64,000 nucleotides of DNA. Source: Ailanthus altissimus (lineage: Eukaryota > Streptophyta > Magnoliopsida > Sapindales > Simaroubaceae). Below, in pieces: positions 18,439-64,000 of the stretch. The notes beneath the pieces were generated by a model that was not told where the DNA came from, ran no database searches, and worked only from the letters and a program-made list of their open reading frames with translations. The stretch is from positions 8,928,001-8,992,000 of the forward strand of contig OX327686.1 in assembly GCA_946807835.1 (NCBI GenBank), given 5' to 3'. The position numbers were made by a program, and so were the translations under genes. How positions within the stretch are numbered: the first letter of the stretch is position 1; every line of letters begins with the position of its first letter.

Positions 18439-20521
18439 TATTGGAATATTTACTTACATGACATCCTATTTTGTAAGAATATTTTATTTTATAATATTTA
18501 TACAGTACATTTTATTAAATTGCTAATTTTATTAATTAAATGGTACAATGCTTATTACGCTACAGACATTGTATGATTTGAAAGAGTTCAGATCTGGTCT
18601 AAAGGAGTTTAGTCTAGCTCTAAGAGTTAGCAGCGCTGAGAATTATAATTTCTAATAGTTAGCGCTACTAAGAGTTAGTAAGTTATAAAAGTCAGTAAAA
18701 TCTAAGAGTTAGGATCTTATCTGTAACGAGACATAGACCCGAGAGTACATTAGTAATAACATAGTTGCAATAGGTACTAAGAAATGTTATTATGCATGTG
18801 TATTCTTAAACATGGTGTTCCTAATCTAATTCACCGATGCGAGTCTATCGGTGAAATTCTTAATTATAGATCAATGTATGACCATATCTAGATGGTCTAG
18901 ATAGTTGTTCTTAGCTGACCATGGGCTTACCGGAAAGCTCATATGGCATACAGGTATTTAGTGAGGACTGAATACTGAACCGACTCAATAAGGACCCCAA
19001 TAGACATCCCATGAAGCCGTCATGGTTAGTACTCTCGAGTTGATTAGTGTACATGGTCCTTTAACCTGAGCACCACGGTGGACTTGTGAGTGATCCACCA
19101 TACTTTGGTTCATACATATATCAGATACCTTTCATGATCTGACCGTTATGTGTCGTTGGGTATGGTCCGATGCTCATAGAGTCCCGTGTGCGCAAATATA
19201 AAATCCGTCTATTCACATGAGTGAGTTACATATCTAGATGCTTCGAAACTGTATCTCAAAAAGACTTATGGTCATAAACAATGAATTCAAAAAAAGAGTT
19301 TCTCATAGGGTTAAATAATATCGCAAAGGTATTTGGATGTATTATTTATCGAGATATGTGTCTAGATATAAATTCACGGATGAACGTGTGAGAATTTGAC
19401 GGTGATGATCTATATCCCTACCTTTTCGTGATTAAATGGCAGAAAGATTATACGTATGTGCGATGACCTCAACTTGTATAGTTTACTGCGCTGATTTATA
19501 ATATCTGTGATATGTGCGTAGGGCGTCGATCATGGACTCACGTAACAGTTCCGTTTAAAAAATTGGGCATGGACCTAGAGAGTCCTGCAATATGAAGTGT
19601 ATTCGTTGTGCACAGGGGTAGCGTACCGAATTGAATAGTTCAATCCAGTAAATTCCAACAGACCGGACATTTACTTCTATATCCCTCGGGATGTGCACGT
19701 ATTAAGACTTAAGTGTTAAGTCCATCAATTAGTTAACAATAGTTATTGACCAATATGATAATGACACGTGGCATATTATAGGTCAATATTGTTTAACTTA
19801 GAAATTACCAAAATAACCTTACTTGTTGGACAAGCAAGGTCCTTATTTTATTCATTAAATTATTTATTAAATATAATAATAATAATAATAATTGATATTA
19901 TTACTTAAATAAAGTCAAACAACTATTTTTTATTACATAACGCATGTGTTTCTAATTGTTTTAATATGATTAAAATAAAGAGATGAAATATGAATGCATA
20001 GCTAATGAAATTTATGGGACCAAGATGTGTTAAACAAGCAAGTGGAGAAATTATTTCTTTTATTTGCTTTCATTCTCTCGGTCAACACTCTACTCTTATT
20101 AGTTTTTTTATTTTGTTTAATGTAAGCAAATACAAGAAACACTCATGCATGGACAAGTCGATGGTGGGACCTTGTGAATTCATGAAATGAGAAAGAGTTT
20201 CTCCATTTGGTTGCTTAATCGGCCAAGTTCATGCAAGCATTTTATTTTTTGCAATTTTTTAATTTGATTAAAGAATTAACAAATCAAACAAGAGCATATG
20301 GGCAAGAGTTATGTTCCATGTTTTGTGGGGCTATGAAATGTTCATTATTAAAGGGAAAGCAAAACAAATAAAATAGTAAAAGTTGCTCATTTGAGAGGGA
20401 GTATGATCCGGCCATTCAAAGTAGAGAGAGCCTTTTGTTTTTCTTCAAACATTGAAAAGTAAGCAAAAACCTCATTCTCTCATTTTGTTCATCTATTTTT
20501 CTTCTTGTTGACCAAACATAC
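18439..20521 (+). repeat. LTR related to element A (LTR type E), about 2.08 kb
   Basis: Begins TATTGGAATATTTACTTACATGACATCC, resembling TGTTGGGATTTGTGCTTACGTGCC of the other LTRs, and follows the same order of blocks: ACATTGTATGATTTGAAAGAG, the TCTATCGGTGAAA block, the GCACCACGGTGGACTTGTGAG block and the CGGTGATGATCTATATC block. Its length matches the roughly 2.07-2.09 kb of LTRs C and D, so it may be nearly complete. Element A is inserted at its 3' edge. No partner LTR or interior was identified. Confidence 0.65.
20517..20521. repeat. Target-site duplication of element A (left), CATAC
   Basis: Matches 29883-29887 exactly, outside the two LTRs. Confidence 0.9.
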
Positions 20522-22940
20522 TATTGGGATTTGTGCTTACGTGCCATCCCATAATGTATAAATATATAATGATTGTATTTATACAATTATTATTTCTAAT
20601 AAAATCGTTAATATTATTTTTATTAAATGGTAAGATGCTTGTAACGTTTTAGACATTGTATGATCTGAAGGAGTTCAGATTTGGTCTAAAAGAGTTTAGA
20701 CCAGGGCTAAGAGTTAGCAACGCTAATAGTTATAAACACTAAGAGTTAGTAGTACTAAGAGTTAGCAAAATCTAATGAGTTAGAGTCTTGTCTGAAATGA
20801 GACAATGACCTGAGAATATATTAGTAATGATATAGCTGCAATGAGTTGCAGATGGTGCTAAGAAATGTCATTATGCAAGTATGTTCTTAAACATAATGTT
20901 CCTGATCTAATTTCATCGATGCGGGTCTATCGGTGAAATCCATTAATATATATTAGTGTACGTCTATATCTGGATGGTTCAGATGGTTACTCTTAGCAAA
21001 CCATGAGCTTAGTAGGAAGCTCGTATAGAGATGCAGGTATTTCGTAAGGACTGGATATTGAACAGACTCACGAAGACATCCAATAGACATTTCATAAAGC
21101 CGTCAATGGAAGGTCTTCCGAGTTGAGTAGTATTTGTGGTCCTTTGACCTGAGCGCCACGGTGGGCTTGTGAGTGATCCACCATGCTTTGGTTCCACACA
21201 TGTCAGAAACCTTTCATGGTCTGACCACTGGGTGTTGCTGGATATGGTCCGATGCTCATGGAGTTTGGTGTGCGTAGATATGGGATCCATCAGCTCATAT
21301 GAGTGGGTTGTATATCCTAATGCTCTGAGATTGTATTTCAGAAAGTCTTGTGGCCGCAAGCCTCGAAAAAGATATTCCGGAGGAATAAACAATATCACAA
21401 AAGTGTTTGTGGATATTGTTTTATGAAATATAAATCTGGAGATAAGTTCGTGGTTGAGCAAATAGAGATTTGACGGTGATGATCTATATCTCTGCTCTTT
21501 AAGGATATAAATGATAGAATGATTATACGAATATGTAATAACCTCAACTTGTATGGTCTAACATGCTAATTTGTAATATCCGTAACGTGTGTGTGGAACA
21601 TTGTTCACGGACGTATGGAGGAGCTCTATATGACAAATTAGGTGTGGACCTAGAGAGTCTCACAATATGAAGTATACTCGTTGTGCACTGGGGTAGCGGA
21701 TTGGATTGAATAGTTCGATCCAATAAATTTCAGCAAAAGAGAACGATTGTTTAGGGATCCCTCGGATTGTACATTTGTCAAGACTTAATTATTAAGTACA
21801 TCACTTAATTAATTAACAAGGGTTGTTAATTAATAGAATATTGACAAATGACAAAATTTGTTCCATGATTTGATTTTACCATTTTACCATTTAACCATGG
21901 TAGTAAAAATTAGTAACGTAAAAAGTAATTATTCAAAATTATTTTGAATAATTAAATCATATATTATTATTATATTATTAGATAATATTATAATATATAT
22001 ATAGATCATGGCATTGTATTTTAATACAATGAGGAGCCTAAATGTTGGCCATTTAATTATCCATTATAATTAAAGTAATTATAATTGTTAGGTAAAGATT
22101 AATTTTGGTGGCCATTATTCTAGTGCTTGGTTTAATTAATTTTAAATGGGAGACCAACAATAAAATTGGTGGAGCGCTTCATTTTGTTTATTTTTGTTTA
22201 ATCAAAGTATTGAATAAACAAAATGAATTTTTGCAAAACAATTGAATTCATTCATTCAATTTTGGGAGAAGAATTTGGCAATGGCAAGGAAGAGAGGTAA
22301 GAGAGAGTTCTTTGAGTTTTATTCTTTCAAGTGTTAAAAAATAAACAAACTTCTCTTCATCTCCTTCTTTAATGGATGGCCAAAAATGAATGATATGTAA
22401 GTGGAGAAAAAAATAATTATTTTGCAAAGAGTTGTTCAAAATAATTATCATGTAGAAATTGTTTCTAAGATTAATATACAAGAGTTGTATGTTAAAGATT
22501 TTTGATTAATACAAGAGTTGTATAGAAAATATTTACCATCTCCATTTAGGAAACAAAAATTGTATTCAAAGAAGTTGAATACAAGTTGCTGAAAAATTCT
22601 AAATACTAAGCTACCATTCTAGCTCCTTAATCCCACCAAAAGTTATGGACTAGAATTGTTCAACATATACTTCAAGGTGAGCTCTTCACATGGATTATTG
22701 AAGAACTTGAAGAATTTGTAAAGCTACCTTCATTAAGTGAGTATTTTACATTATATTTTTAGTACAATATTGTTCATCATATATATTTTGTATAATTGTT
22801 ATACTTGTGCATATATATGATATATATTGAATTTGTTAAAATGTGTGTATTTTGTTATATGCTTCCGCTGCGCATATGGTAATTTTTGAAATTACGTATA
22901 CACTCAGATTATCACACACTCTATAATACAACACCCAACA
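20522..22940 (+). repeat. 5' LTR of element A (2419 bp)
   Basis: Begins TATTGGGATTTGTGC (the intact copy at 62920 begins TGTTGGG) and ends ACACCCAACA. It is rich in exact hairpins: 20663-20669/20674-20680, 20682-20690/20695-20703 (9 bp, loop AGAG), 20836-20841/20846-20851 (loop TGAG), 20910-20920/20929-20939 (11 pairs, one G-T), 21808-21819/21823-21834 (12 bp, loop GGG) inside 21772-21781/21841-21850 (10 bp), 21927-21938/21942-21953 (12 bp, loop TTA), 22064-22072/22076-22084 (9 bp, loop AAG), 22178-22192/22213-22227 (15 bp), 22413-22424/22437-22448 (12 bp), 22560-22569/22575-22584 (10 bp). Confidence 0.9.
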
Positions 22941-22942
22941 AA

Positions 22943-22954
22943 TGGTATCAGAGC
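22943..22954 (+). promoter_or_regulatory. Primer-binding site of element A
   Basis: TGGTATCAGAGC two bases after the 5' LTR, the standard plant copia site complementary to the 3' end of initiator methionine tRNA. Intact, so minus-strand DNA synthesis could be primed. Confidence 0.9.
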
Positions 22955-23220
22955 ATGTTAAATTGAGTATGTGATTATTCTTGTTGTTGAATATGTTAAC
23001 ATGGTGATGTTGTATATTTAAACAACTTGGTGATGTTTAAATTTGAACATGGTGATGTTTGATATTTAAGCATGATGATGAACATATTGTTGTATGCTTG
23101 AACATGTTAGTGTTTAGAATTGAAGTATGATGATGTTTGGAAATGATGCCCATGAGAAAATAGTAAAAATTGGGGGCGGAAAACAGTGTCTGAACGGTCG
23201 AAACACTATTACCGTGTCCA

Positions 23221-23276
23221 GTGCCGCGGCGCCTAAATCTGGGCGCTGAGGTTCTGACTTGAGCGCCCCGGCGCTC
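23221..23276. repeat. GC-rich patch with two palindromes in the element A leader
   Basis: GTGCCGCGGCGCC at 23221-23233 and GAGCGCC-CC-GGCGCTC at 23261-23276 (7-bp arms, perfect), in otherwise AT-rich sequence. The wording CTGACTTGAGCGCC before the second copy is close to that before 8650. Confidence 0.6.
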
Positions 23277-23445
23277 AGCAAAAAAAAAATTAAATTTTTT
23301 TTTTTTTTGCAGAATATTTTATAATGTTAGAACCTTCAATTTTTAACGCTAATCATTCCAAACATAATACTTGTATTTTTAATTTTTGCAAATAGAATAT
23401 TTAATACAATTATAAGTGTTATATTATTGTATTAAAATTACAAAT

Positions 23446-23516
23446 AATTTGTTTACGTTGTTAAGCACAATGAGAGGCCTATTTATAGGGGTTAGTTGTG
23501 CTTACGTAAATAAATT
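23446..23516. other. Extended 71-nt hairpin with a palindromic TATA-like tip
   Basis: Outer arms AATTTGTTTACG / CGTAAATAAATT (12 pairs, one wobble), a four-base bulge, inner arms TAAGCACAA / TTGTGCTTA (9 perfect pairs), then the self-complementary CCTATTTATAGG (23478-23489) at the tip. The minus strand of the tip reads CCTATAAATAGG, a good TATA box. Either a structural RNA hairpin or the arms of a tiny inserted element. Confidence 0.5.
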
Positions 23517-23703
23517 TTCTAATTATGAATTAGATTCGTATGAGATGCGAAAAGTTATTATTATTATTATTATTACTAATTTATTAACAAAATAATAATT
23601 AAAAATTAAATCTCTCTTAATCAGATTGAATAAGTATTATATTATGAGATAATATTATACAATGATCCGCCTTGTCAATACGGTATTAGACGGGTCATTT
23701 CGG

Positions 23704-24020
23704 TCACTCCTAAGATCGCTAAAGTGTGAGGGATTGGTCGGGGTGATTCGGGCTATGCCGGTTAAAATATGAGATGAGGCAAATATATGCGAAAATACTA
23801 TCTTAGATCACTAAAGTGTGCGGATAGTATCGGTAACATATATTTGATGATTGACAAGTTAATCTGAAATACAATTATCTTAGATCGCTAAAGTGTGCGG
23901 ATAATGTGTATTTAGGATCAGTAATAAGAGTTGTATGAGATACAATTGGCAAGAGTTGTCTACCTTTTGGGTTTACAAATGCCAAAATCGCTAAAGTGTG
24001 CGGCTGGAGTAAAATGTCAA
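23704..24020. repeat. Four stem-loops with a shared loop and different, pairing stems
   Basis: The core GATCGCTAAAGTGTGCGG or close variants occurs at 23714-23731, 23806-23823, 23883-23900 and 23986-24003. Spacings are 92, 77 and 103 bases, not multiples of three. Copy 2 is flanked by ATACTATC / GATAGTAT (8 perfect pairs). Copy 3 is flanked by AAATACAATTATC / GATAATGTGTATTT (13 pairs, one bulged G). Copy 1 is flanked by CGGTCACTCC / GGATTGGTCG (9 of 10 pairs, two of them wobbles). Copy 4 is weaker (TTTAC, internal loop, GCC / GGC, internal loop, GTAAA). The loop is kept while both stem strands change together. Confidence 0.7.
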
Positions 24021-24660
24021 TGGGGTCTACTTCCCGTTGTACAGTTTAAAAGATTAAACTGTCATTTTTCCTTTTGAGAGATTTAAGGAATTATGTAAAG
24101 CAGTGGGAGGGCATCTTTAGATTAAAAATTGTATAAAAGTTATATCATGATCTAAAGCATTATTTATTAACGATTAGAAATATTTCGCTAAACATCTCCA
24201 AAATTTTATCTTATAGTGATAAGATAAGTAACTTATAGAGATAAGAAGACTATGAGCAACCCGTTAATATACTTGATTAAGCACATAATCTATAAGGTAG
24301 CGAAAATTATTAAGACTTGCTTATAATCTAAGAATTGTTCTAGATTAAAAGAAATATATAGATATATAAAATATCAATAGATAATACAAGAGGTGTTTCT
24401 GATAATGTCTTTTAAGAAGAGACAGTAGATTATCAGAAAAGGATTAAGAATAATTTAAAAGTCAAATTATATATCCTGACCTATCTAATGATCTTCAGTG
24501 GGAACATATGCACATGAGATGTACAAATAGTATAATGCTTCATCTGAATTTTATTTTATATATCTATGACAAATATAGAGAATGTTATGCAATGGAAAGT
24601 GTTTCCATTATTAATAAGGTTTTAATAATAAGAGTTATTATTCATAGAACCTTAACTAAG

Positions 24661-27450
24661 AAAGGATAAAACTCTTAGACATCTGTTTACCGATAAATGA
24701 CATTTCATATGCAAATGATGTATAGAAGTATAAGGATATGAGATATCGCCCATCCTTCTCACAACTGCAAGATGTTGTATAATTTAAGGAATACTAAAAA
24801 ACGATAAAATGAGAAGTACAACTACACGTAGGAAATAGAGATTACCTATACGTGGTAGCTGTTAGGACTTTTAAGTCACTTCTCCATTCTAGTAAAAGCC
24901 TTATGTTGTATTGTTGTTATTTTATGCCATGAATACTAAGGCAAAATATGTGCTCTCTGTTAGACAGAGAGGGCTATCATACATACAATAAGAATAGTTC
25001 TTTATGTTTATATGATAATAATAATATTTTGTTAACTGAATGTCAGTGAATTAAATGGCCTTTATATATGACATACAACGAGTAATGCATAAAAATGTCT
25101 AGGTGAACAAAACTAATAATAGTTCAAAAACTTTGAATAATGACGAATTATGGCATAAGTGATTAGGTTAAGTAGCCATAAGATGACTACCCCGACCAGT
25201 TAAGGATGGTCAAATGTTTGATCTGACCATAGAACCTTGACCAGTTTATGAATCTCGTATTCAAGGGAAGTTGACTAAATAATTTTTATTGGTGTTAGAC
25301 ATCAAGCCACTGGTTTATTAGAACTAATACATAGCGATGTATATGATCTAATGAATCATACTGCCATTGGTAAGTTTCAATACTTCAATATCTTTATCGT
25401 GATTTGTCACGATACAGACATGTGTTTCTAGAAAAATATAGGTCGATAATTTTGAAGTGTTCAAAGAATATCGACTAGAAGAAGTATGTTAAACACCTTT
25501 GATTAGATCGAGGCTGTTTATACATAAGTAGTAAATTCACGAATTATTTAAAAGAGAATAAGATTCTAGCTTAATATAGTTCTCTAGATATCCTTAACAT
25601 AAATATGTTTTAGAAGTATAGAGAAATCGGACTTTATTAGATATAGTTTGATCGATATTAAGCTTTATCGATCTTTTAAAATATCTAAAGGGTTATGCTC
25701 TAGAAACTGTTACTCATCTATTGAATAAGGTTCCATTGTAAATTATTCCGTCTACTACATATGAGATATGAATTAGAAGGAAAGAGAATCTTAAGTATGT
25801 TAAGATTTGAGGTTATTTTACTTGCATAAGAGTTATGCTATAATATATACTTGGACCCAAGGGGTACAAGTATCGGTTCAAAGGATATCCCAAATGTTCT
25901 ATGAGATATCAGTTCTATCAATCAAAAATGGAACTTAAAGATCAATTGAGTTAAATACCTTTAACACACTTTACCATAGGTCATATAAAAAATATAAAGA
26001 CCACTTGTTAGGTATATTAGATACCTAAAATGTATTTTTAATGTTTTTCTTAGTTGAAGAAAAAGGATTTTATGACTTACAGTTAAACGATATTAGATAT
26101 CGTTTAAGAAAATTGACAATACGCCAGAAAATTCAAAATTAACTTTTAGCATGAAAATCAAGTCTAAAACTTGGTTATAATTTATATAAAAATTGTTCTT
26201 ATTGGTTGTAAAAGAGTTTACGCACGGAAGTGTGGGCCCAAAAGTAGGTAAGAATCTTTAAAAGCCCTATTGACGTAAAAGGTTACCCTCAACGGTCTGA
26301 GATCGATTATGAGGAAACCTTTCACTAATAAACATGCTAAAGTTAATTCAAATTTATATTGGATATTGTAGTATGCTAAACTCTTCATTTTGATGAGATA
26401 ATCAAATAATCTAATTTGATTAAGAATGAAGAGAGAGCATGTGTGTTTAGAAAAGGTAGTGGGAGCATGAATTATCTTTCTAATTCTCTATATATAAAAA
26501 CATTCTCATTGTCACAAATAAAGACAATGGTATGTTGCAAGTCAGTCAGTTAAGAGTTAACTGAGTAAGAACATTTCATAAAAGATTTGGTAGATGCTTC
26601 CTGTATACTGGGTATAAGGCGTTATACAGATAAAGTTGGGAAGTAGATAGGACTCTCCAAATCTCCGTACATAGACTAAGTCCTGAAAAGGTACAATTTT
26701 AATAACTATAAAATAGTTCATGTATCTTTCAGACATGGAGTTGATTTTTCTAAAAAGAAGTGTCCTCAAGTAGAAAATGAAAAGGTTAGTGTGTCTAACA
26801 TTTAATATACATCAACTAGAGATAGCTTGATGTATACCATGTTATGTACGAGACCTATATTATGATGACTGTAAATGTTATGAGCCGACACCAGTTTAAT
26901 CTAGGTAACGACTATTGGATAGTCGTGAAATATATCCAAGTTATACCTGAGAGGTATAAAGGACAAGTTTCTAATTTATGGAGAAAGTTGCTTACAAATG
27001 AGAGGATACGTATAATCAGACTTCTAATCTGATCCAGATGATAGAGAGTCTACATCTGATTACGTACTTTTTCTCAATGGTACCAAAACCTTGTAGCATA
27101 AGTGCAATTTTTTAAATGTCCACATTTGATTCTATTGTAAAGATAGAATTTGTTGCAGCTTAAGAAGCCTGCAAAGGAATTTCTGTGGATATTCAAGTTA
27201 GTTGCAGAGTTCAGAATACGTTCTAAGCTTAATGAATCCTATCACATTATAATACAACGTCAGCGGGGTAATTGCTCAAGCCAAAATACCATATAATTAA
27301 ATATATATTGGCTAATGGAGATGTATAAGATAATCTAGGAAAACATCCTTACAGATTATAGCGGACCCGCTTTCTAGAGCCTTAACTCTTAAAAGTGTTT
27401 GAGAAACACATAGAGTCAATGGATATGAAATACCATCCTGAATGGCACTA
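24661..27450 (+). pseudogene. Dead copia pol of element A
   Basis: Order is preserved but no frame is open for long. Integrase start near 25300-25400 reads RHQATGLLELIHSDVYDLMN then HTAIGKFQYFNIF. Integrase later gives TNYLKENKILA near 25540. RT opens with RSEIDYEETF near 26300 and continues DASCILGIRRYTDKVGK and KSPYID.VLKRYNFNNYK around 26600-26720. The 'SLMYTMLCTRP' block lies near 26850. RNase H shows EACKGISV near 27160 and ADPLSRALTLKSV near 27365. No YVDD-equivalent box was recognised. Perfect inverted repeats run through it, for example 25787-25794/25800-25807, 26008-26015/26021-26028, 26083-26093/26097-26107 (11 bp, loop TAG), 26546-26553/26557-26564 (loop GAG), 26908-26915/26919-26926 and 26941-26948/26952-26959. 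Confidence 0.75.
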
Positions 27451-27464: not shown

Positions 27465-29882
27465 TATTGGTATTTGTGCTTACGTGTCATCCCATAATGT
27501 ATAAATATATAGTGATTGTATTTATACAATTATTATTTCTAATAAAATCGTTAATATTATTTTTATTAAATGGTAAGATGCTTGTAACGTTTTAGACATT
27601 GTATGATCTGAATGAGTTCAGATTTGGTCTAAAAGAGTTTAGACCAGGGCTAAGAGTTAGCAACGCTAATAGTTATAAACACTAAGAGTTAGTAGTACTA
27701 AGAGTTAGCAAAATCTAATGAGTTAGAGCCTTGTCTGAAATGAGACAATGACCTGAGAATATATTAGTAATGATATAGCTACAATGAGTTGCAGATGGTG
27801 CTAAGAAATGTCATTATGCAAGTATGTTCTTAAACATAATGTTCCTGATCTAATTTCATCGATGCGGGTCTATCGGTGAAACCCATTAATATAGATTAGT
27901 GTATGTCTATATCTGGATGGTCCAGATGGTTACTCTTAGCAAACCATGAGCTTAGTAGGAAGCTCGTATAGAGATGCAGGTATTCCGTAAGGACTGGATA
28001 TTGAACAGACTCACGAAGACATCCAATAGACATTTCATAAAGCCGTCAATGGAAGGTCTTCCGAGTTGAGTAGTATTTGTGGTCCTTTGACCTGAGCGCC
28101 ACGGTGGGCTTGTGAGTGATCCACCATGCTTTGGTTCCACACATGTCAGAAACCTTTCATGGTCTGACCACTAGGTGTCACTGGGTATGGTCCGATGCTC
28201 ATGGAGTTTGGTGTGCGTAGATATGGGATCCATCAGCTTATATGAGTGGGTTGTATATCCTAATGCTCTGAGATTGTATTTCAGAAAGTCTTGTGGCCGC
28301 AAGCCTCGAAAAAGATATTCCGGAGGAATAAACAATATCACAAAAGTGTTTGTGGATATTGTTTTATGAAATATAAATCTGGAGATAAGTTCGTGGTTGA
28401 GCAAATAGAGATTCGACGGTGATGATCTATATCTCTGCTCTTCAAGGATATAAATGATAGAAGGATTATACGAATATGTAATAACCTCAACTTGTATGGT
28501 CTAACATGCTAATTTGTAATATCTGTAACGTGTGTGTGGGACATTGTTCACGGACGTATGGAGGAGCTCTATATGACAAATTAGGTGTGAACCTAGAGAG
28601 TCTCACAATATGAAGTATACTCGTTGTGCACTGGGGTAGCGGATTGGATTGAATAATTTGATCTAACAAATTTCAGCAAAAGAGAACGATTGTTTAGGGA
28701 TCTCTCGGATTGTACATTTGTCAAGACTTAATTATTAAGTACATCACTTAATTAATTAACAAGGGTTGTTAATTAATAGAATATTGACAAATGACAAAAT
28801 TTGTTCCTTGATTTGATTTTATCTTTTTACCATTTAACCATGGTAGTAAAAATTAGTAAGGTAAAAAGTAATTATTCAAAATTGTTTTGAATAATTAAAT
28901 TATATATTATTATTATATTATTAGATAATATTATAATATATATAGATCATGGCATTGTATTTTAATACAATAAGGAGCCTAGATGTTGGCCATTTAATTA
29001 CCCATTATAATTAAAGTAATTATAATTGTTAGGTAAAGATTAATTTTGGTGGCCATTATTCTAGTGCTTGGTTTAATTAATTCTAAATGGGAGACCAACA
29101 ATAAAATTGGTGGAGCACTTCATTTTGTTTATTTTTGTTTAATCAAAGTATTGAATAAACAAAATGAATTTTTGCAAAACAATTGAATTCATTCATTCAA
29201 TTTTGGGAGAAGAATTTGGCAATGGCAAGGAAGAGAGGTAAGAGAGAGTTCTTTGAGTTTTATTCTTTCAAGTGTTGAAAAATAAACAAACTTCTCTTCA
29301 TCTCCTTCTTTAATGGATGGCCAAAATCGAATGATATGTAAATGGAGAAAAAGATAATTATTTTTGCAAAGAGTTGTTCAAAATAATTATCATGTAGAAA
29401 TTGTTTCTAAAATTAATATACAAGAGTTGTATGTTAAAGATTTTTTATTAATACAAGAGTTGTATAGAAAATATTTACCATCTCCATTTAGGAAACAAAA
29501 ATTGTATTAAAAAAAGTTGAATACAAGTTGCTGAAAAATTCTAAATACTAAGCTACCATTCTAGCTCCTTAATCCCACCAAAAGTTATGGACTAGAATTG
29601 TTCAACATATACTTCAAGGTGAGCTCTTCACATGGATTATTGAAGAACTTGAAGAATTTGTAAAGCTACCTTCATTAGGTGAGTATTTTACATTATATTT
29701 TTAGTACAATATTGTTCATCATATATATTTTGTATAATTGTTATACTTGTGCATATATATGATATATGTTGAATTTGTTAAAATGTGTGTATTTTGTTAT
29801 ATGCTTCCGCTGCGCATATGGTAATTTTTAAAATTACGTATACACTCAGATTATCACACACTCTATAATACAACACCCAACA
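27465..29882 (+). repeat. 3' LTR of element A (2418 bp)
   Basis: Collinear with the 5' LTR throughout and nearly identical. Several hairpins are kept exactly (for example the 9-bp TGGTCTAAA stem and the 12-bp AATTATTCAAAA stem, whose loop is TTG here instead of TTA). The 10-bp stem at 22560 is damaged here at about 29503. Ends CACCCAACA, then the CATAC duplication. Confidence 0.9.
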
Positions 29883-29887
29883 CATAC
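29883..29887. repeat. Target-site duplication of element A (right), CATAC
   Basis: Exact partner of 20517-20521. Confidence 0.9.
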
Positions 29888-36589: not shown

Positions 36590-37562
36590 CCAACGCCACC
36601 TCCATCTAAAAAATAAAATTGAATGTAAAATACATACAAGGTAAGAAGCGTCCAAATTCAGAGTGCAGGTAGGAGTAGCGGCATGAATGGAGGACAAGTG
36701 GTAGGGTTGTTCAAAAACTAGCAGCCCAACCCAGTGACTCTAGATGTTGATCACCCACGGTTATTTACTCGCTAAGTGGCGGTGCAGGTTGTGGGTCACC
36801 AGACTCTTAACCTTTTTACAACAAAGGCAAGGCGAATATCTCGAAAAGTTCTCGAGCGTTTACGGGCACGTGTCCACTCTCCTCGATCCACAAAACCCTC
36901 ACTTAAATCCATACTGTTCTCCTATCTTTCCGTTAAAAGGCTACCCTCTCCCCTCTTATTCTCTCTAATTTTACAATCCACTTCGCTTTCTCTGGTATCC
37001 ATTTTACTTTTTATCCCTCTGTAGATTCTCTTCACTTCACATCTATCCCTCTTCCTCTTTGTCTGAAACCCAACACGATAAACGATTGGGATTTCCTTTG
37101 TTTTGTTTTGTTTTCTTATTTTTTATTTTGCAGATATGGAGTGATCAAGTTGTTGTGTCCAGTCGTATCTTTTGAGTAAGGTTTTTGGTGTCTTATAAAT
37201 TCATGTTCGACCCATTTATGCTGGTCCACGTTCGCTCTCAAATCTGGTTGCGCAAAAGAAAAAGGTCAAAATCCAACAACACCCTTATCTGATTTTCTCT
37301 TATAACCCCTTTGTCTCATACCTCATATCTTCAATTTTCCTATTTTTATATTACTTCAAAATATTGCTCTCCATAGACTATAATACTGTTGGTCTTGTTC
37401 TTGCTTTCAATTTCCAGCTACAGCTTGTAATTGTATATACTGAGTTATAGCTAAGCTAATTAGATTAAGCTTCTATTAGGTTGAGTTTGACATAGGTGGT
37501 TTTTTTTTTCTGAACATCTAAAAGAGAGTTAAATTTGGTAATTTTTGTCAAAAGTGGCTAAA
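36590..37562 (+). promoter_or_regulatory. Promoter and 5' leader of the mitochondrial carrier gene
   Basis: A G-box/ABRE-like site GGCACGTGTCC is centred at 36867-36872. Downstream 36890-37060 is strongly pyrimidine-rich, typical of plant transcription starts and 5' leaders. A leader intron is plausible: a GTAAGG-like donor follows at about 37173 and several pyrimidine-AG acceptors precede the ATG. The exact splice sites are not determinable here. Open frames within 36744-37024 show no family resemblance. Confidence 0.45.
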
Positions 37563-38618
37563 ATGAGTTTAGGTGCGGCTGAGGATGATTCGGCATCAGA
37601 GGTTCATTTACCAGCTGATGTAGATTGGCATATGCTTGATAAATCCAAGTTCTTCTTTTTGGGCGCCGCTTTATTTTCTGGGGTATCTGCTGCACTTTAT
37701 CCAATTGTTGTGTTAAAAACCCGTCAACAAGTTTTGGCTACTCCAGTTTCTTGCTCCAAAATGTCATTTGCCATCATGCATTATGAAGGTTTTAGAGGGT
37801 TTTACAGAGGATTTGGTACCTCATTGACAGGAACTATCCCAGCTCGTGCGCTTTACATGGCAGCGCTTGAGATTACCAAGAGTAGTGTTGGGACTGCAAC
37901 TTCTAGATTAGGATTTTCAGATACTACAGCCACGGCCATAGCTAATGCCGCAGCTGGGTTGAGTTCGGCTATGGCTGCACAGCTAATTTGGACCCCAATT
38001 GATGTTGTGAGTCAAAGACTTATGGTTCAAGGATGCGTCAATAACAGTAGCAAAAACATAGTTCCAAATGTAAGTGCATGCAGATATAATAATGGTCTTG
38101 ATGCTTTTAGGAAAATTTTGGTTGCTGATGGTCCAAGAGGATTATATAGGGGATTTGGGTTATCAATATTGACATATGCACCATCAAATGCAGTTTGGTG
38201 GGCTTCCTACTCTGTTGCCCAGAAGCTCTTTTGGGGTGGTTTTGGGTGCTATATGAGTGAGAAAGATGAAAATTCTGCAAGTAGTGGGTGTGCTTACAGG
38301 CCTAATTTGAAGGCAGTAGCGGCAGTGCAGAGTTTAAGTGCAGCCATGGCTAGTGGTGTTTCAGCATTAATCACTATGCCACTTGATACAATAAAGACCA
38401 GGTTACAGGTCTTGGATGGAGGAGAGAACGGACACAGAAGGCCACTTACTGTTCTGCAGACAGTTAGGAATTTGGTAAAGGAAGGTGGATTTGCTGCCTG
38501 CTACAGGGGGGTGGGGCCAAGGTGGGCATCAATGTCTATGTCTGCAACAACCATGATCACTACCTATGAGTTTCTGAAACGGCTTTCTGCTAAGACTCAA
38601 GGGAGCTTGACATCATGA
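37563..38618 (+). CDS. Mitochondrial carrier family protein (SLC25A44-like)
   Basis: Intact single-exon frame of 351 aa from the ATG at 37563. The frame stays open 18 bases further upstream but with no ATG there, and plant relatives begin at MSLGAAEDDS. Three tandem carrier repeats are visible. Signature motifs are PIVVLK (47-52, Asp replaced by Val), PIDVVS (145-150, Lys replaced by Ser) and canonical PLDTIK (273-278), each followed by helices and a GFRGFYRGFG / GPRGLYRGFG / GGFAACYRGVG loop. Such proteins sit in the inner mitochondrial membrane with six transmembrane helices. Human SLC25A44 imports branched-chain amino acids, but the substrate of this plant group is not established by sequence. 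Degenerate first and second signatures are typical of the group. Convergent with the Alfin-like gene. Confidence 0.93.
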   Translation: MSLGAAEDDSASEVHLPADVDWHMLDKSKFFFLGAALFSGVSAALYPIVVLKTRQQVLATPVSCSKMSFAIMHYEGFRGFYRGFGTSLTGTIPARALYMAALEITKSSVGTATSRLGFSDTTATAIANAAAGLSSAMAAQLIWTPIDVVSQRLMVQGCVNNSSKNIVPNVSACRYNNGLDAFRKILVADGPRGLYRGFGLSILTYAPSNAVWWASYSVAQKLFWGGFGCYMSEKDENSASSGCAYRPNLKAVAAVQSLSAAMASGVSALITMPLDTIKTRLQVLDGGENGHRRPLTVLQTVRNLVKEGGFAACYRGVGPRWASMSMSATTMITTYEFLKRLSAKTQGSLTS

Positions 38619-47696: not shown

Positions 47697-49767
47697 TGAT
47701 AGTGTTGTGTGCGCGTGCGATGTGCTATGGGTGAATGTATGCATTTTAAATAACTTAAAGATTGCATGTCTCACATGCAACGCAAAGAAAATATAACACA
47801 CAATACTATCTCATTACATTAATAAAATTATGAGACTCACCCTTGAAGCGTGTTTTTAAACAAATCTAATTAGAGATGTGGTGGGCTTCCTCAAGTTAAA
47901 CTAGTATCCTTCATTTTCGAAACTATCTGAAGTAACTCTTCTTCTAGTTTATTTTTGTCTCTTAAATTAAAAATATTTAATTACTTCTGTATAATGTTAA
48001 CATTCCAAAAGCATTACAAATGAATTCGGCTTACACAAATAATTCCACTTACTTAGTCATATCAATTCATTTCTATTTCAATTGAATTCATAGTTTACTT
48101 TACACATAACAAAATGAATTTGGTCATTATATATAGCTAAATGAGCCACCATCTTAGCCAATTAATTAAAGAATGTTTACCATTTGTAAAAGGTGACAAG
48201 ACAAAGGAAAAGCTTACTATTGTTTAAATTTGGTGGCTAGGTTTTAGAAGCAAGTATTAAAATTATTTGTTCAAAACATTGCCGCCGTTTGCTTTCATTA
48301 TAAAGCTTTCCTTTTGGCCAATCAAAAACATACATATATGTATTAATTTTTAATAAGCCAATGAAATGAAAACAACAAATGGCAATTGAATTGTTAAAGT
48401 AAAGAATCAAATTCATTTTAATATAACAATAGCCAAATAATATATATATATATATATATAATGAAACAATAATTATTTCATTACTATATTTATCAATGCT
48501 CAAATTAGAGCCCTTACAAATTATTAGTATAATTTAAGGTATATACTTAGTAGATTAAAGTGTCAAGTCACACTTGGCACAATCTTAGGTTTAACACTTA
48601 AACCTTAACTATTCCTCAATAGACTTTAAAATAAATTCATATTTTTGAAAATTTCTTGGATCGAACAATTTGATCCAGTGTACTACCTACATGATCAACG
48701 AGTATACTTCATATAGTGAAACTCTCTAGGTTTATACCCATTTTGTCTCGCAAAATATTTCTGTAAGTCTATAACTGATGCCCAACACACATGTTATGGA
48801 TAATACAAAATGGTGAGTTGAACCATACAAGTTGAGGTAAATTCATATTCGTACAATCCTTCTATAATATATATCCTGAAAAAGCGGAGATGTATATCAA
48901 CACCGTTAAGTCCCTTATTGCTCAACCATAAACTCATATCTTCGATTCGTATTCCGATAATTAATATCCACAAACTACTTTGCGATATCATTTATATCAC
49001 GGGAAACTTTTTCCTAGGTTTAATGCTTATGGTTATAAAACTTCTTGAAATACAATCTTAGTGTATCTGGATATTTGACTCACCCATATGAGCTGACGAA
49101 TCCCATATCTACACACAACAGATTTCATAAGCATCGGATTACACTCAGTAACACCCAACGGTTAGACCATGAAAGGTCTCTAACATGTGTGGAACCTAAG
49201 TATAGTAGATTACTTATAAGCTCACTATGGAATTCAGGTCAAATGACCACGAATACTACTCAACTTGAGAAGATCTTGTTTTGACAGTTTTATAGGATAT
49301 CTATTGGAGGTCTTTATTGAGTCATTTTCAATATCCAATCCTTACTGAATACCTATATATCTATACGAGCTTCCACTAAGCTCATGGTCTGCTAAGATTA
49401 ACTATCTGGACAATCCAGATATAAATATACACTTATCTATATAAATAAGTTTCACTCGACAAACTTTGTATTGTTGAAAATAGATCAAGAACATACTTGC
49501 ATAATGACATTTCCTAGCAATGCTTGCAACTCTTTGCAATTATGTCATTGTTAGTATATTCACAGGTCTTTGTCCTATTTTAGATAAAGTTCTAACTCTT
49601 TAGAGCTGATTTAAACTGCTTCAGATCAATACAATGTCTAAAATGTTACAAGCATCTTACCTTATAAGAAATAATTATTGATTCAATGAATTATTTATTT
49701 ATTACATAAGTATGCAAATATAATATTCATACAAAATTAGAATGGCACATGGGCACAAATCCTAACA
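47697..49767 (-). mobile_element. Solo LTR C, element-A-related family, 2071 bp
   Basis: Minus strand begins TGTTAGGATTTGTGCCCATG and ends CACAACACTATCA, with 5-bp TTAGG duplications on both sides. It contains the shared blocks (ACATTGTATTGATCTGAAGC, the TATCTGGATTGTCCAGATA hairpin, the CCATAGTGAGCTTATAAG block, the TAACGGTGTTGATATACATC block). There is no interior, so it arose by LTR recombination. A (TA)n run lies at 48440-48460. Confidence 0.85.
48438..48460. repeat. (TA)n microsatellite
   Basis: About eleven TA units within solo LTR C. Confidence 0.8.
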
Positions 49768-51502: not shown

Positions 51503-53122
51503 AACGTGTTTTAGAGTGTAGGTATGTAATTGTGTACATGTTGAAAAAAAAATTAAACACATGTATCATATACATGAATTTTGTAGTGGAATTAAGCATG
51601 TAATCAATATATATATATGTAAGTTAAATCATTAACAACTTAAGATTATAGAAACATACATTTGATAACCTTCGGTAAAGATTTCAATTCCGGATTCTTC
51701 CTAATTCCAACTTTGAGCTTACCTTGAAGTGCACTTTTGTTCAATTTTAGTTCACAATAATCCGGTGGGATTGTGAAACTAGAATAACAGTAATTGAATT
51801 TTTAGCAATAAGATTTTTGTTTCTTGAAAGAAAAATAAGATGAATTTATTTTTCTTTCTCTCTAGTTTTTCTCTCAACACCTTGTTCAAAGAAAAACTCA
51901 ATAAAACTAAACTCTCTCACACTCCCTCTCACCATGCATGATTTTTGCTTCACCCTTTGTTAATTAATTATTCAAAATAATGTTTATGTGTGTTAAGTAC
52001 TTTACAAGTGGTCACAAAATTGATTAAGTTGCCAAAAACTAAAAATAATATTTGGTGGCAATTATACCTAATTAGGTATATGTCTCCCACCTAAACCAAA
52101 ATAATAAATAACTAAATAAATATTATCTTTTATTTAAATAATATTTATTCAATTATTCAAAAACTATTTGAATAATTAATTTTTATCTTATTTGATTTTA
52201 TTAAGATGATTAATGGGTGAATTCATGGTAAAACAATTTATGGAACAAAATTGTGCTACTTGTCAACATTTAATTAGTTAATAACTCTTGACAATTAATT
52301 AAATGATGTACTTAACATTTAAGTCTAGATAAGTATATAACCCGAGGAACTCTGAAATATATTTTCGGTTTACTGAAATTTCTAGGATGAAACTGTTTAA
52401 TCCATAATGCTGCCCCAATACACAACGAGTACACTTCATATTATGAGACTCTCTAAGTCTATACTCAAATTGTCATATGAAACTCTTCCATACGTCCGTG
52501 AACGATACCCCCCCACACATTATGGATATTAAAAAGCGACACATTAAACTATACAAGTTGAGGTTATAACATATTCGTATAATCCCTCTATCATTTATAT
52601 CTGAGTAGAGCAGAGATATAGATCAACACCGTTAAATCTCCATATGTTTGACAAAAACTTATCTCTAGAATTGTATTTCAATAAATAATATTTTCAAACA
52701 CATTTGTGATATTATCTATCCTTAAAGTTAAACTCTTTTTTCAAGAATTATTACTTATGGCCATAAAATTTTTTGAAATACAATCCTAGAGTATTAGGAT
52801 ATATTACCTACCTAAATGAGTTGATGGATCCCATATCTATACACACCGGACTCTATAAGCATCGGACCATACTCAACGACACCTAGTGGTCAGGCCATGA
52901 AAGGTTTTTGACATATGTGGAACCAAAGTATGGTAGATCACTCCCAAGCCCACCATAACACTCAGATCAAAGGACCACAAATATTATTTAATTTGAAAGA
53001 CCCTCTATTGACGGCTTTATGGGATGTCTATTGGAGATCTTTGTGAGTCTGTTCAATATTCAGTCCTTATTGAATACCTGTATCTCTATACAAGCTTCCA
53101 TAAAATTCATAGTCTGCTAAGA

Positions 53123-53127
53123 CTAAC
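53123..53127. repeat. Target-site duplication of solo LTR B (low side), CTAAC
   Basis: Matches 55384-55388. Confidence 0.75.
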
Positions 53128-55383
53128 TGTTAGAGTTGGTGCTTACGTGCCATCCTTGAATGTACATATACTTGTGTATTTATACAAGGGTACATTCCTA
53201 TTAAATCGCTAATACCTATTAATATGGTATTATGTAATGTAACATTACAGACATTGTAGATTTAAAGAAGTTCAGGTCAGATCTAAAGGAATTTAGATAA
53301 GGGCCTACAATTAGCCACGCTGAGAGATATAAATGCTAAATATTAGCACAACTAAATGTTAGCTGGTTATAATATTCAGTAGATCCAAGAGTTGGAGCCT
53401 TGTTTGTAATGAGACATAGACCTGGGAATATACCAGTAACTCCATAGTTATAAGAGTTACAATCGGGTGCCAGAAAATGCCAATTGCACAAGTATGTTCT
53501 CAAATAATTGTCTCTGATCTATTTCTGCCGATGCGGGTCAGTAAATGGATACCTTTATATATAGATCAGTATATGTTGTCCCTATAGGATATAGATGTTC
53601 GTTCTTAGCCAACCATGATCTTGGAGCTCGTATTAACATATGGGTATCCAGTTCGGGCTGGATATGGGACTGACTCACGAGGGTCTCTAATAGACACCCT
53701 ATGTAAGCCGTCAACGAATAGTCCTCTCAAGTTGAGTAGTATACGTGGTCTTTTGACCTGAGTGCCATGGTGGGCTTGTAAGTAATCCACCATACTTTGG
53801 TTCCATGCATGTCATAGACTTTTTATGGTGTGACTACTAGATGTCACTGGATATGATCCAATGCTTATAGAGTCCGATGCATACAGATATGGGATCCGTC
53901 AGCTCGTATAGGGAGTTCGATATCCAGATGCTTGAAAACTGTATCTTGAAAAGTCTTGTGACCACAAGCATCAAGCCAGAAAAAGAGTTCTGCCAGGGTA
54001 GAACAATATGGCAAAGGAGTTTGCGCATATTATTCAGTGAGATACAAGTCTGGATATAAGATATGGATGAGCATAAGGGGATTTGACCGTCATAATTTAT
54101 ATCCCCGTACATCCAGGATATCATGACGGAAGGACTATACGTATGTGTTGTAACCTCAGCTTGTATGGTTCAACGCGCTGATTTGTATATCCGTGACGTG
54201 TGCGTGAGGCATTGCTCACAGACTCATGGAATAGTTTCATTTAACAAATTAGGCGTAGAACCTAAGGAGTCCCGCAATATAGAGTGTACTCATTATGCAC
54301 TGAGGCAACGTGCCGAATTAAAGTGTTTAATCCAGCAATATTCAGCAGTACCACAGGAATGCGTGCATGTCTGTATTTAAGTGTTAAATACAATAATTAG
54401 TCAATAATTATTATTTACTAATTGTATAATAACAAGTGGCGCATTGTGGACTCTTGGTTAAGTTTACCCAAGTGCGGGTTTGGTGGGACCTATTTGGAGG
54501 TAAATTTGGTAACTATTCATGAGGGGCAAAATGATCATTTTATACTTTAATTATTTAATAGTTAAATACTCAAAATATATCTCTTATTTTATTATATAAT
54601 ATATTATTATATTATTATATTATATTATATTATATATATAATAATATTTTATTTAGGTGCCAAATAGTTGGCACCCATTAAGTATTTTTATTATTATTAT
54701 TATTATATTATATTATATATATAATAATGTTTTATTTAGGTGCCAAATAGTTGGCACCCATTAAGTATTTTTATTATTATTATATAATATATTATATTAA
54801 TATATATATATATATATATATTAGATATATATAAAGAGAGAGAGATGAATGAAATCAAGTGTGTAAGAGTGGTGGCCATTTTGGCCGAGAAAGAGAAGAG
54901 AAGAAATGGAGAGGAAGAAAAGAAGAAGAAGGAAAAGAAAAAAAAAAGGAAAAAAATAAAATTATTTCATTTTTTTCTATGCTTCCAATTGAAACAATGG
55001 TGGATTGCTTCAAATTCTCCATTTCTTATTTTTTTATAGAGAAAATGATAAAAATACACACTGACCATTTTGGGGTTTAAGAGGTAAACCCAGTGCTGCG
55101 TATAGGGCTGTTGTTTTAACTTACCAAGCCCACCGTGTTGGTGACTAGAACTACCATCGAGTTGGTCTCAATGCCAACTCTGAAAAATTACGTGTATAAC
55201 GTTACACGTTGAGGTGAGTTCTCTACTCTAAAAATATATTAATGCGATTAAGATATTTGATTTATTGTATTTATTGCAAATTTCACACTTCCATCAGACT
55301 TAAATATGTATTTGATAATATATTTAGGCAATAGACATCATTGCACATGCATACACCCACGTGTATTAACATCTCCGACAATA
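53128..55383 (+). mobile_element. Solo LTR B, 2256 bp, nested in LTR D
   Basis: Begins TGTTAGAGTTGGTGCTTACG and ends CTCCGACAATA (CA end mutated), between CTAAC duplications. A partial second copy is at 62024. It shares the central 1-kb blocks with LTRs A, C, D and E. Its 3' part holds an AT-rich zone with a duplicated palindrome (54656-54758), a purine-rich tract (54880-54960), and open frames there that are only low-complexity. Confidence 0.8.
54656..54758. repeat. Duplicated perfect hairpin GGTGCCAA-ATAG-TTGGCACC
   Basis: The 20-base palindrome occurs at 54656-54675 and 54739-54758, 83 bp apart, within a tandem duplication that also includes ATTAAGTATTTTTATTATTA. Each has perfect 8-bp arms and a four-base loop. 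Confidence 0.9.
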
Positions 55384-61640: not shown

Positions 61641-62023
61641 GTATCAAATGTTAAAGAAATGTCAATGATAGGCAAATGCATACCTGAAGGGGTCTTCTTA
61701 AACTTGGCAAGGTATTTTGAGTAGTTCCGTTTTCAATGTCCATCCTCGCTGCAATGGAAACATTTTTCTTTTGCTTTGTTCTTATGCTAGGGCTTGGACA
61801 TGTGTTGCTTTTGAGGACCCATTTTGGGTGCATATTTTGCTTTCTTTTTATTTTTTCCTTTAAACTTCTTAGAATTCTTCAGGACAAAAGATGAAATACC
61901 TTGAACATAGAGGGTTGTGCCCCTTTGTTCATGTCTTCTTGAGCTATTTCCAGCATGTTATATAGATTAGCATAAGTAGTGGTTAATTCTTGCATATTGA
62001 AGTTCATGATGAACTGTGCAAAT
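61641..62023 (-). pseudogene. copia gag zinc-knuckle region
   Basis: Minus strand around 61770-61715 reads CFHCSEDGH, stop, KRNYSKYLAKFKKTP: a CX2CX4HX4C knuckle whose last Cys is now Tyr and where a Trp codon became a stop. Further upstream NMQELTTTYANLYNMLEIAQ (about 62000-61940) is gag. LTR B is inserted at 62024. Confidence 0.65.
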
Positions 62024-62919
62024 TGTTAGGGTCGGTGCTTACGTGCCATCCTTGAATGTACATATTCTTGTGTATTTATATAAGTTTACATTCCTATTAA
62101 ATCGTTAATACTAATTTATATGGTATTATACATGTAACATTACAGACATTGTAGATCTGAAGGAGTTCGGATCAGATCTAAAAGGTTTAGATAAGGGCTC
62201 ATAGTTAGTCACGTTGAGAGATATAAATGCTAAATGTTAGCACAGCTAAGTGTTAGTTGGTTATAATACTCAGCAGATCTAATAATTAGAGTTTTGTCTG
62301 TAATGAGACATAAACCTGGGAGTATACTAGTAACTACATAGTTGCAAGAGTTGCAATCGGGTGCTAGAAAATGCAACTTGCGTAAGTATGTTCTCGAATA
62401 ATTATCCCTGATCTATTTCTGCTGATGTAAGTTTCTCAGTGGATACCCTTATATATATAGATCAGCATATGTCGTACCTATCGGGTATAGATGGTCGTTC
62501 CTAACCGACTATGAGCTTGGAGCTCGTATTGATATATGGGTATCCAGTTAAGACTGGATATGGGACAGACTCACAAGGGCCTCCGATAGACATCCTATAT
62601 AAGCCGCCAATGGAGACTCCTCTCGAGTTGAGTAGTATACGTGGTCCTTTGACCTGAGTGCCACGATGGGCTTGTAAGTGATCCACCATACTTTAGTTCC
62701 ACGCATGTCACAGACCTTTCATAGTGAGACTGTTGGGTGTCGCTGGGTATGGTCCGATGCTTATGGAGTCTGGTGCGTACAGATACGGGATCCGTTAGCT
62801 CTTATAAGAAGTTTGATATCCATATGCTTCGAGACTGTATCTCAGAAAATCTTGTGGCCATAAGTATCAATCTCGGGAAAGAGTTCCGTCAGGGTAGACC
62901 AATATGGTAAAGGAGTTTG
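62024..62919 (+). repeat. Second copy of LTR B, 5' part, inserted in copia gag
   Basis: Begins TGTTAGGGTCGGTGCTTACG and is collinear with 53128 onward. It stops in the AAAGGAGTTTG block, where LTR A begins. The rest should lie beyond the window. The preceding CAAAT (62019-62023) would be its target duplication, not testable here. Confidence 0.8.
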
Positions 62920-64000
62920 TGTTGGGATTTGTGCTTACGTGCCATCCCATAATGTATAAATATATAGTGATTGTATTTATACAATTACTATTTCTAATAA
63001 AATCGTTAATATTATTTTTATTAAATGGTAAGATGCTTGTAACGTTTTAGACATTGTATGATCTGAAGGAGTTCAGATTTGGTCTAAAAGAGTTTAGACC
63101 AGGGCTAAGAGTTAGCAACGCTAATAGTTATAAACACTAAAAGTTAGTGGTACTAAGAGTTAGCAAAATCTAATGAGTTAGAGCCTTGTCTGAAATGGGA
63201 CAATGACCTAAGAATATATTAGTAATGACATAGCTGCAAGGAGTTGCAGATGGTGCTAGGAAATGTCATTATGCAAGTATGTTCTCAAATATAATGTTCC
63301 TAATCTAATTTCATCGATGCGAGTCTATCGGTGGAACCCATTAATATAGATTAGTGTATGTCTATATCTGGATGGTCCAGATGGTTACTCTTAGCAAACT
63401 ATGAGCTTAGTAGGAAGCTCGTATAGAGATGCAGGTATTCAGTAAGGACTGGATATTGAACAGACTCACGAAGACATCCAATAAACATCTCATAAAGCCG
63501 TCAATGGAAGGTCTTCAGAGTTGAGTAGTATTTGTGGTCCTTTGACCTGAGCGCCACGGTGGGCTTGTGAGTGATCCACCATGCTTTGGTTCCACATATG
63601 TTAGAAACCTTTCATGGTCTGACCGCTGGGTGTCGCTGGGTATGGTCCGATGCTCATGGAGTTCGGTGTGCGTAGATATGGGATCCATCAGCTCATATGA
63701 GTGGGTTGTATATCCTAATGCTCTGAGATTGTATTTCAGAAAGTCTTGTGGCCGCAAGCATAAACCTCGGAAAAGATATTCCGGAGGAATAAACAATATC
63801 ACAAAAGTGTTTGTGGATATTATTTTATGAAATATAAATCTGGAGATAAGTTCGTGGTTGAGCAAATAGAGATTTGACGGTGATGATCTATATCTCTGCT
63901 CTTCAAGGATATAAATGGTGGAAGGATTATACGAATATGTAATAACCTCAACTTGTATGGTCTAACATGCTAATTTGTAATATCTGTAATGTGTGTGTGG
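62920..64000 (+). repeat. Third copy of LTR A, 5' part, nested in LTR B, cut by the window end
   Basis: Begins TGTTGGGATTTGTGCTTACG with an intact TG end (both LTRs of element A have TATTGG). Very similar to 20522 onward through at least 63990, including the 9-bp TGGTCTAAA hairpin and the ATCTGGA-TGG-TCCAGAT hairpin. Preceded by GTTTG (62915-62919). Whether it is a solo LTR or the start of a full element cannot be seen. Confidence 0.85.

Follow-up and report, generated by a model that had tools for sequence, protein, structure and literature searches.

Four copies of a short loop sequence, set on flanks that differ from copy to copy, raise the question whether they form a nucleic acid structure kept by selection or a decaying repeat and, if selected, what might read them. 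In the window, which is the whole stretch of 64,000 nucleotides of Ailanthus altissimus DNA analysed here, the 14-mer CGCTAAAGTGTGCG occurs on the forward strand at 23717 and 23809 (one mismatch each) and at 23886 and 23989 (no mismatch), and no further site with up to three mismatches is present. Shuffled windows contained on average 1.23 such matches anywhere and reached four or more in 2 of 100 shuffles; in the real window all four loops lie inside 286 bases. Their spacings are 92, 77 and 103 bases, in agreement with the range of 77-103 given in the first-pass annotation, which had been made from this sequence alone. The reverse complement of CGCTAAAGTGTGCG is absent from the window at up to three mismatches. 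The loop does not occur only here, since the exact 14-mer was found 613 times (337 + 276) in the genome (939 Mb in 37 contigs); the reversed pattern, used as a control, had no copy genome-wide. A protein repeat, already considered improbable at the outset, is ruled out by the spacings and by the absence of a forward stop-free frame of at least 60 amino acids across the array. A search of 22501-25500 with the Rfam covariance models returned no match, be it the hammerhead of retrozymes or another known RNA; two weak hits (E 0.45 and 0.57) lay outside the array and far under the gathering scores.

The array sits in the 5' leader of an inserted LTR retrotransposon. The element is of the Ty1/copia type according to its LTR pair, the target-site duplication, the adjoining primer-binding site (PBS) and the copia-type gag of its open relatives L053 and L055. 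In the flanking sequence, the 5-bp duplication CATAC was found at 20517-20521 and 29883-29887. The 5' LTR (20522-22940) and the 3' LTR (27465-29882), both on the forward strand like all features of the leader described below, are 97.81% identical over 2420 alignment columns. Both begin with TATTGG yet end with CCAACA; LTR ends are usually TG...CA. The PBS TGGTATCAGAGC at 22943-22954 adjoins the 5' LTR and is, as we assume, of the initiator tRNA-Met type; among the 70 loci L009-L078, 54 have it with at most one mismatch. Downstream of the leader, a decayed gag region (24246-25015, forward strand) matches the gag of open copies in pieces and in several frames. The gag ATG of these copies aligns near 24246, and some of the gag-remnant counts given below (shared stops, core-versus-gag tests) took the remnant from 24225. 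The internal part of the element has no stop-free stretch of more than 93 amino acids on either strand. A promoter or nested LTR at TATTTATAGG near 23486 was considered and dropped because its letters are not kept in other copies. Further or older LTR relatives, some of them reversed, lie near the element at 18526-19660, 48778-49290, 52346-54347 and 62021-64000.

For comparison, we used the 30 best matches to 23461-24060, the window copy included (L009-L038), and 53 further loci (L039-L078 and L079-L091), which were the places listed first among the 14-mer matches on contigs 1-5, two places not being taken. All 53 have at least two loops in the spacing of the array, and all 13 of L079-L091 have four. 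A third set, 17 of 40 places, was picked for resemblance to the decayed region 24700-25300 outside the array. Twelve of these 17 carry four loops, L105 and L107 carry three, and L092, L098 and L100 carry none; from the last three stretches the 5' part is missing, as their gag-remnant match starts only 180-351 nt in.

The array is present both in copies with an open gag and in a gag-less lineage. The gag of the open copies L053 and L055 encodes Retrotran_gag_2 (PF14223), zf-CCHC with one knuckle and Pol_BBD, and in the subfamily comprising L050, L053, L055 and L068 it starts about 235-245 nt past the fourth loop. The loci L045, L064, L065, L067, L073, L074 and L076 combine the array with a recognisable gag at 55-79%. 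The window subfamily is built differently: a sense stop-free stretch of more than 99 amino acids occurs in none of the 30 copies L009-L038, 14, 19 and 24 stops in the three frames are common to at least 90% of 30 copies, and alignment of gag-less copies to the open gag yields pieces at about 30-60% in several frames. The window lineage is a non-autonomous LTR element, and the gag defect is common to the lineage. Lineage-wide stops and decayed gag therefore indicate that this subfamily multiplied without a gag of its own, presumably by using the Gag of gag-bearing copies. Relatives of this gag were found in at least 12 named flowering plants, with up to 45% identity, among 120 listed of 250 proteins; in IMG/VR, a search for the loop 20-mer gave no hits, and a search for the gag family gave 28 pattern matches, none of which was confirmed.

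Each of the four loops is predicted to crown a hairpin, designated type I, with the tip module UAGAUCRCUAAAGUGUGCG (GAG replaces GCG in HP1). Stability was expressed as RNAfold z-scores relative to shuffles. HP1 spans 23681-23760 (loop 23717-23730, z -4.58), HP2 23780-23846 (loop 23803-23822, z -4.07), HP3 23862-23918 (loop 23880-23899, z -2.91) and HP4 23963-24024 (loop 23984-24001); the z of 0.00 shows that the stability of HP4 in the window copy does not exceed chance. The complementarity of the flanks claimed in the first-pass annotation was confirmed in each case. The stems of HP2 are CAAATATATG/CATATATTTG and ATACTATC/GATAGTAT, the latter pairing exactly; AAATAC and ATTATC pair with GATAAT and GTATTT around a bulge; the stem named first is part of the longer, 80-nt hairpin HP1; and the fourth hairpin, described as weaker, has its stem (TTGG/TCAA, TTTAC/GTAAA, TGCC/GGCT) interrupted by internal loops. 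HP2, HP3 and HP4 are each predicted to form a mini-helix CRC-UAAA-GUG, and HP1 is predicted to form a related one. By eye, the only self-complementary part of the type I loop module is GATC (4 nt); dimer initiation sites are usually six-base palindromes.

The same leader contains a second hairpin class, type II, with the loop AUGAGAU. The ATGAGAT sites at 23540, 23644 and 23935 have stems of 5, 5 and 6 further pairs, the fourth site in the leader (23769) has one such pair, and the 11 other forward-strand sites in the window have 0-3. At least three further pairs were found at these three sites in 3, 16 and 14 of 22 representatives, respectively, while three representatives had no such site. 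The upstream copy (23535-23551) has 5 bp beyond AT..AT. H0 (23639-23655) has the stem TATTAT/ATAATA in the window subfamily and CATTAT/ATAATG in gag-bearing copies, and Hx (23929-23947) reads AGTTGT-ATGAGAT-ACAATT. The stems at 23644 and 23935 differ between copies with pairing kept. Two long-range helices are proposed, namely P1 (TGATCC, 23663-23668 with 23915-23920), which competes with the foot of HP3, and P2 (CTTGTCAAT, 23671-23679 with 23850-23858). Downstream of HP4 follow the hairpins H5 (ACAGTTTAA/TTAAACTGT, 24041-24062) and H6 (CTTTAGAT/ATCTAAAG, 24115-24157).

For 64 copies, RNAalifold gave a structure of -57.1 kcal/mol; double changes occur in 24 of its 114 pairs. In the structure used for testing (100 pairs, same alignment), 96.1% of the cells are paired compared to 94.2% in column shuffles, and 192 cells show double changes compared to 88.2; neither value was reached in 500 shuffles. 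Slid versions of the structure pair at only 31-45%. Two of the five shuffle measures were at chance, i.e., the 20 double-change pairs (53 of 500) and the 82 further pair types (170 of 500). Clear exchanges were AU to CG in HP3 (pair 260-291; 35 and 26), CG to UA in HP2 (pair 184-213; 34 and 24), GC to AU in HP1 (pair 72-133; 33 and 22), UA to CG in Hx (pair 321-329; 35 and 24) and CG to UA in H5 (pair 432-459; 34 and 20). Pair 19-33 of H0 is UA 37 times and CG 19 times, and pair 54-241 of P2 is GC 37 times and AU 18 times.

Because one ancestral change can look like many, changes were reconstructed on a tree. It comprised 77 distinct copies from the 83 loci L009-L091, after removal of one identical copy and of L046, L053, L062, L069 and L077, which have an incomplete array or extra sequence. 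The 107 structure pairs counted were compared with random column pairs on the same tree, matched for base and number of changes. Changes on internal branches have been passed through replication, and those on terminal branches are private to single copies. On internal branches, pairing was kept or restored in 110 changes and broken in 28, a ratio of 3.88 versus 1.98 in the null (0 of 2000 as high), whereas the terminal branches with 185:215 (ratio 0.86, null 0.83) look neutral. The stems named in the first-pass annotation, which had been defined on the window sequence alone, gave 36:8 on internal branches (2 of 2000) and 53:45 on terminal ones, slightly over the null (44 of 2000); the helices not named there gave 74:20 on internal branches (0 of 2000). 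P1 and P2 by themselves were not significant (179 of 2000).

The result was stable in five variants of sample, root and reconstruction, with 0 of 1000 for all helices in each and 0-6 of 1000 for the stems named beforehand. These variants included restriction to the 49 motif-sampled copies, a switch of the parsimony choice, rerooting of the tree, and the removal of 38 gag-less copies; among the 39 copies left in the last case, 13 were unclassified, including L082, which is gag-less. The pooled test is partly circular, as the RNAalifold result was already known when the helices were drawn; this is answered by the window-defined stems and by folds of single sequences. The minimum free energy structures of four single copies, two folds each, all passed on the ratio (0-1 of 1000), although the two folds of L065 also had an elevated terminal ratio (4 and 6 of 1000), with no fewer broken pairs than in the null. 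The covariation test with R-scape proposed in the first-pass annotation was carried out pair by pair in an R-scape-like, tree-aware version of our own, in which no single pair fell below E=1. This per-pair test has low power because two clades dominate the sample, so that the evidence rests on the pooled, branch-aware test. That test supports the initial claim that constant loops on covarying stems mark a selected structure and not a decaying repeat; instead of preserving the stem sequence and losing the pairing, other copies keep the pairing while the stem letters change. Taken as a comparative result, the view that the array between PBS and gag is an RNA-like structure kept by selection is supported.

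The hairpins lie in a conserved leader core (23640-24180) delimited by the mean identity per 60 bases among 24 representatives, which is 0.78-0.85 over 23641-24180 compared to 0.44-0.55 over 22921-23340, 0.60-0.72 over 23341-23640 and 0.62-0.74 over 24241-24960. Between the window copy and L050, identity is 0.77-0.92 in the core and 0.50-0.71 over 24241-25020. In three open copies the core ends about 65 nt upstream of the place of the gag ATG. Since the gag of open copies is under protein selection, this profile alone is no neutral comparison, and internal and terminal changes were counted within the gag-less lineage. In 21 copies not picked on the core outside the loops, with L105 and L107 dropped for missing loops, the internal:terminal counts were 87:252 in the core versus 135:223 in the gag remnant (odds ratio 0.57, p=8e-4). 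By site class, stems differed from the gag remnant with p=2e-4 and other core sites weakly (p=0.048), and the loops alone were no different from it in these 21 copies (p=0.36). For the core-versus-gag tests, stem sites were separated from other sites with helix H1d out of register by a single base, which affects two sites.

The outcome varied with the sample. The gag-sampled copies by themselves gave p=0.29 and all 50 gag-less copies, core-chosen ones included, p=2e-15; with motif-sampled copies only and loops excluded, p was 2e-10 for 8 copies and 0.054 for 10 copies including deep lineages. A contrast in 37 copies (p=2e-18; in the loops 0 internal versus 29 terminal changes) was kept out of the main evidence because 30 of the 37 had been chosen for core similarity. 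The core is under selection where gag is untranslated, best supported for the stems and more weakly for the loops.

The first-pass annotation had left it open whether the structure is RNA or single-stranded DNA. Among internal changes of Watson-Crick pairs, 51 led to G-U and 18 to A-C, an excess that is absent on terminal branches (118 versus 107; p=0.0021). In five variants, p was 0.0077, 0.055, 0.0575, 0.0060 and 0.0008, the two weak values belonging to the other parsimony choice. This bias moderately favours sense RNA over DNA or antisense RNA and, with p between 0.0008 and 0.058 in six settings, disfavours the single-stranded DNA alternative. A structure acting at the DNA level, such as a cruciform or a recombination or integration site, would agree with the good folding of HP2 and HP3 on the minus strand as well (z -4.93 and -4.15), but in view of the internal G-U excess we consider it very improbable. 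Even less credit is given to the notion that the array has no function and consists of old direct repeats whose covariation is apparent through shared ancestry. The dominance of two clades, the failure of every single pair in the tree-aware test and the two shuffle measures at chance would be in line with it; the contrast between internal and terminal branches, however, is hard to obtain from ancestry alone when the null shares the tree and has matched columns.

We estimate a probability of about 0.52 that a structured leader RNA with the array at its centre acts in cis in transcript recognition, most likely for packaging into Gag particles. Its position between PBS and gag, the RNA structure, the constant loops on free stems and the retention in gag-less copies match what a packaging signal read by Gag predicts. 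Two features of psi-type signals, a structured RNA between PBS and gag and retention by defective elements, appear to be present, and the packaging guess of the first-pass annotation fits the position and distribution of the array; these comparative data do not tell packaging apart from roles in dimerisation, export or reverse transcription. Each type I hairpin would present the same module on a stem of free letters, with the predicted CRC-UAAA-GUG tip above an asymmetric internal loop. The nucleocapsid part of Gag, which has one CCHC knuckle, might bind several type I sites at once, perhaps along with the AUGAGAU hairpins, and the gag-less lineage could spread by showing the same tag to the Gag of gag-bearing copies. 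We infer that defective copies moved in trans. More tentatively, four hairpins with one module and further hairpins with a second may form a multivalent packaging code read co-operatively by Gag; the number of units varies between copies, with five type I loops in L053 and three in L105 and L107. If such a code exists, gag-bearing elements and gag-less parasites could compete by array avidity.

Other functions of a selected leader RNA must be weighed against packaging. The leader could recruit export factors or ribosomes, through an entry site or a shunt, for gag expression. In open copies the core immediately precedes the gag start, and structured leaders of plant pararetroviruses serve export (PMC12786077) and ribosome shunting (PMC2241666) according to the portions of these papers that are available. 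A role in gag translation only, however, predicts the opposite of what is seen in the gag-less lineage, which shares 14-24 stops per frame and has preserved its core better than its gag remnant. Gag translation is therefore not the sole selected role, and we regard this explanation as rather doubtful, with export as its more viable part because a non-coding parasite needs export too. Improbable, in our judgement, is a contribution of the leader to tRNA priming, cyclisation or strand transfer during reverse transcription. Such 5' pairings near the PBS are described for Ty1 in the accessible text of PMC4974528; here, 52 of the 54 loci with a PBS have their first loop 667-986 nt further downstream (the exceptions being L066 with 304 nt and L074 with 532 nt), the stretch between PBS and array diverges freely, and the window lacks the reverse complement of the 14-mer. 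Slightly less improbable, though still unlikely, is recognition of the hairpins by the host, through a protein or a small-RNA pathway, with the effect of stabilising, localising or silencing the transcript. Constant loops on variable stems would suit any hairpin-binding protein and do not single out Gag, but retention in replicating lineages would speak against a site for purely host-beneficial silencing.

Packaging of the leader into Gag particles has counterparts in other systems. In small RNA viruses, dispersed packaging hairpins with a common loop and free stems are bound co-operatively by the shell protein; here the hairpins are clustered in one leader and belong to a retrotransposon. The retroviral psi, with SL1-SL4 in HIV-1, likewise comprises several stem-loops downstream of the PBS, as outlined in the accessible part of PMC3902901. 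The present case differs in being a plant copia-type element with four hairpins that share one long apical module, and no sequence relation is claimed. In the barley copia pair BARE1/BARE2 (PMC3735527, available text), the Gag-deficient BARE2 is packaged in the particles of the Gag-making BARE1, and signals for packaging and dimerisation are said to persist in it. Packaging is experimental there, whereas our evidence is comparative and gag is widely decayed; a loop-identical array is not mentioned in that part of the paper. For Ty1, 5'-end cis signals suffice for donors helped in trans, and Gag in competition prefers RNA with the 5' region (PMC4974528, PMC8396678, PMC5454406; accessible parts). 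The Ty1 signal differs in having a pseudoknot and kissing loops and a Gag without zinc finger, as opposed to a CCHC knuckle and a repeated loop here; the sections at hand of PMC4974528 and PMC8396678 place the signals of Ty1 and Ty3 near the 5' end and describe them as not clearly defined. The available text of a 2025 review on host factors of plant LTR elements names no plant packaging signal and contains neither "dimeriz" nor "PSI" (PMC12786077), and a literature search, made mostly in openly accessible journals, yielded no report of such a hairpin array. A chain of hairpins just before the capsid gene, kept also by a relative whose capsid gene no longer works, points to a tag that may mark the RNA of the element for recognition. 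With a defined loop module on free stems, 613 genomic copies of the 14-mer and retention by a gag-less lineage, the choice of RNA by plant particles becomes directly testable, and the contrast between internal and terminal branches offers a simple way to find cis-acting RNA in multicopy elements.

Some observations concern single loci. L053, which has an open gag frame, carries its five loops at locus positions 1409-1770 by way of a duplicated 77-nt hairpin unit. L105 and L107, with spacings of 92/103 and 92/85, look as though a portion of the array had dropped out between units. In L062 (1585-3258), the distance between two adjacent loops is 1673 bases where about 103 would be expected, probably owing to a nested insertion. 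Elsewhere in the window, 37545-38618 contains an open frame of 357 amino acids of the mitochondrial carrier family (PF00153, three stretches), likely a host gene near the retroelements.
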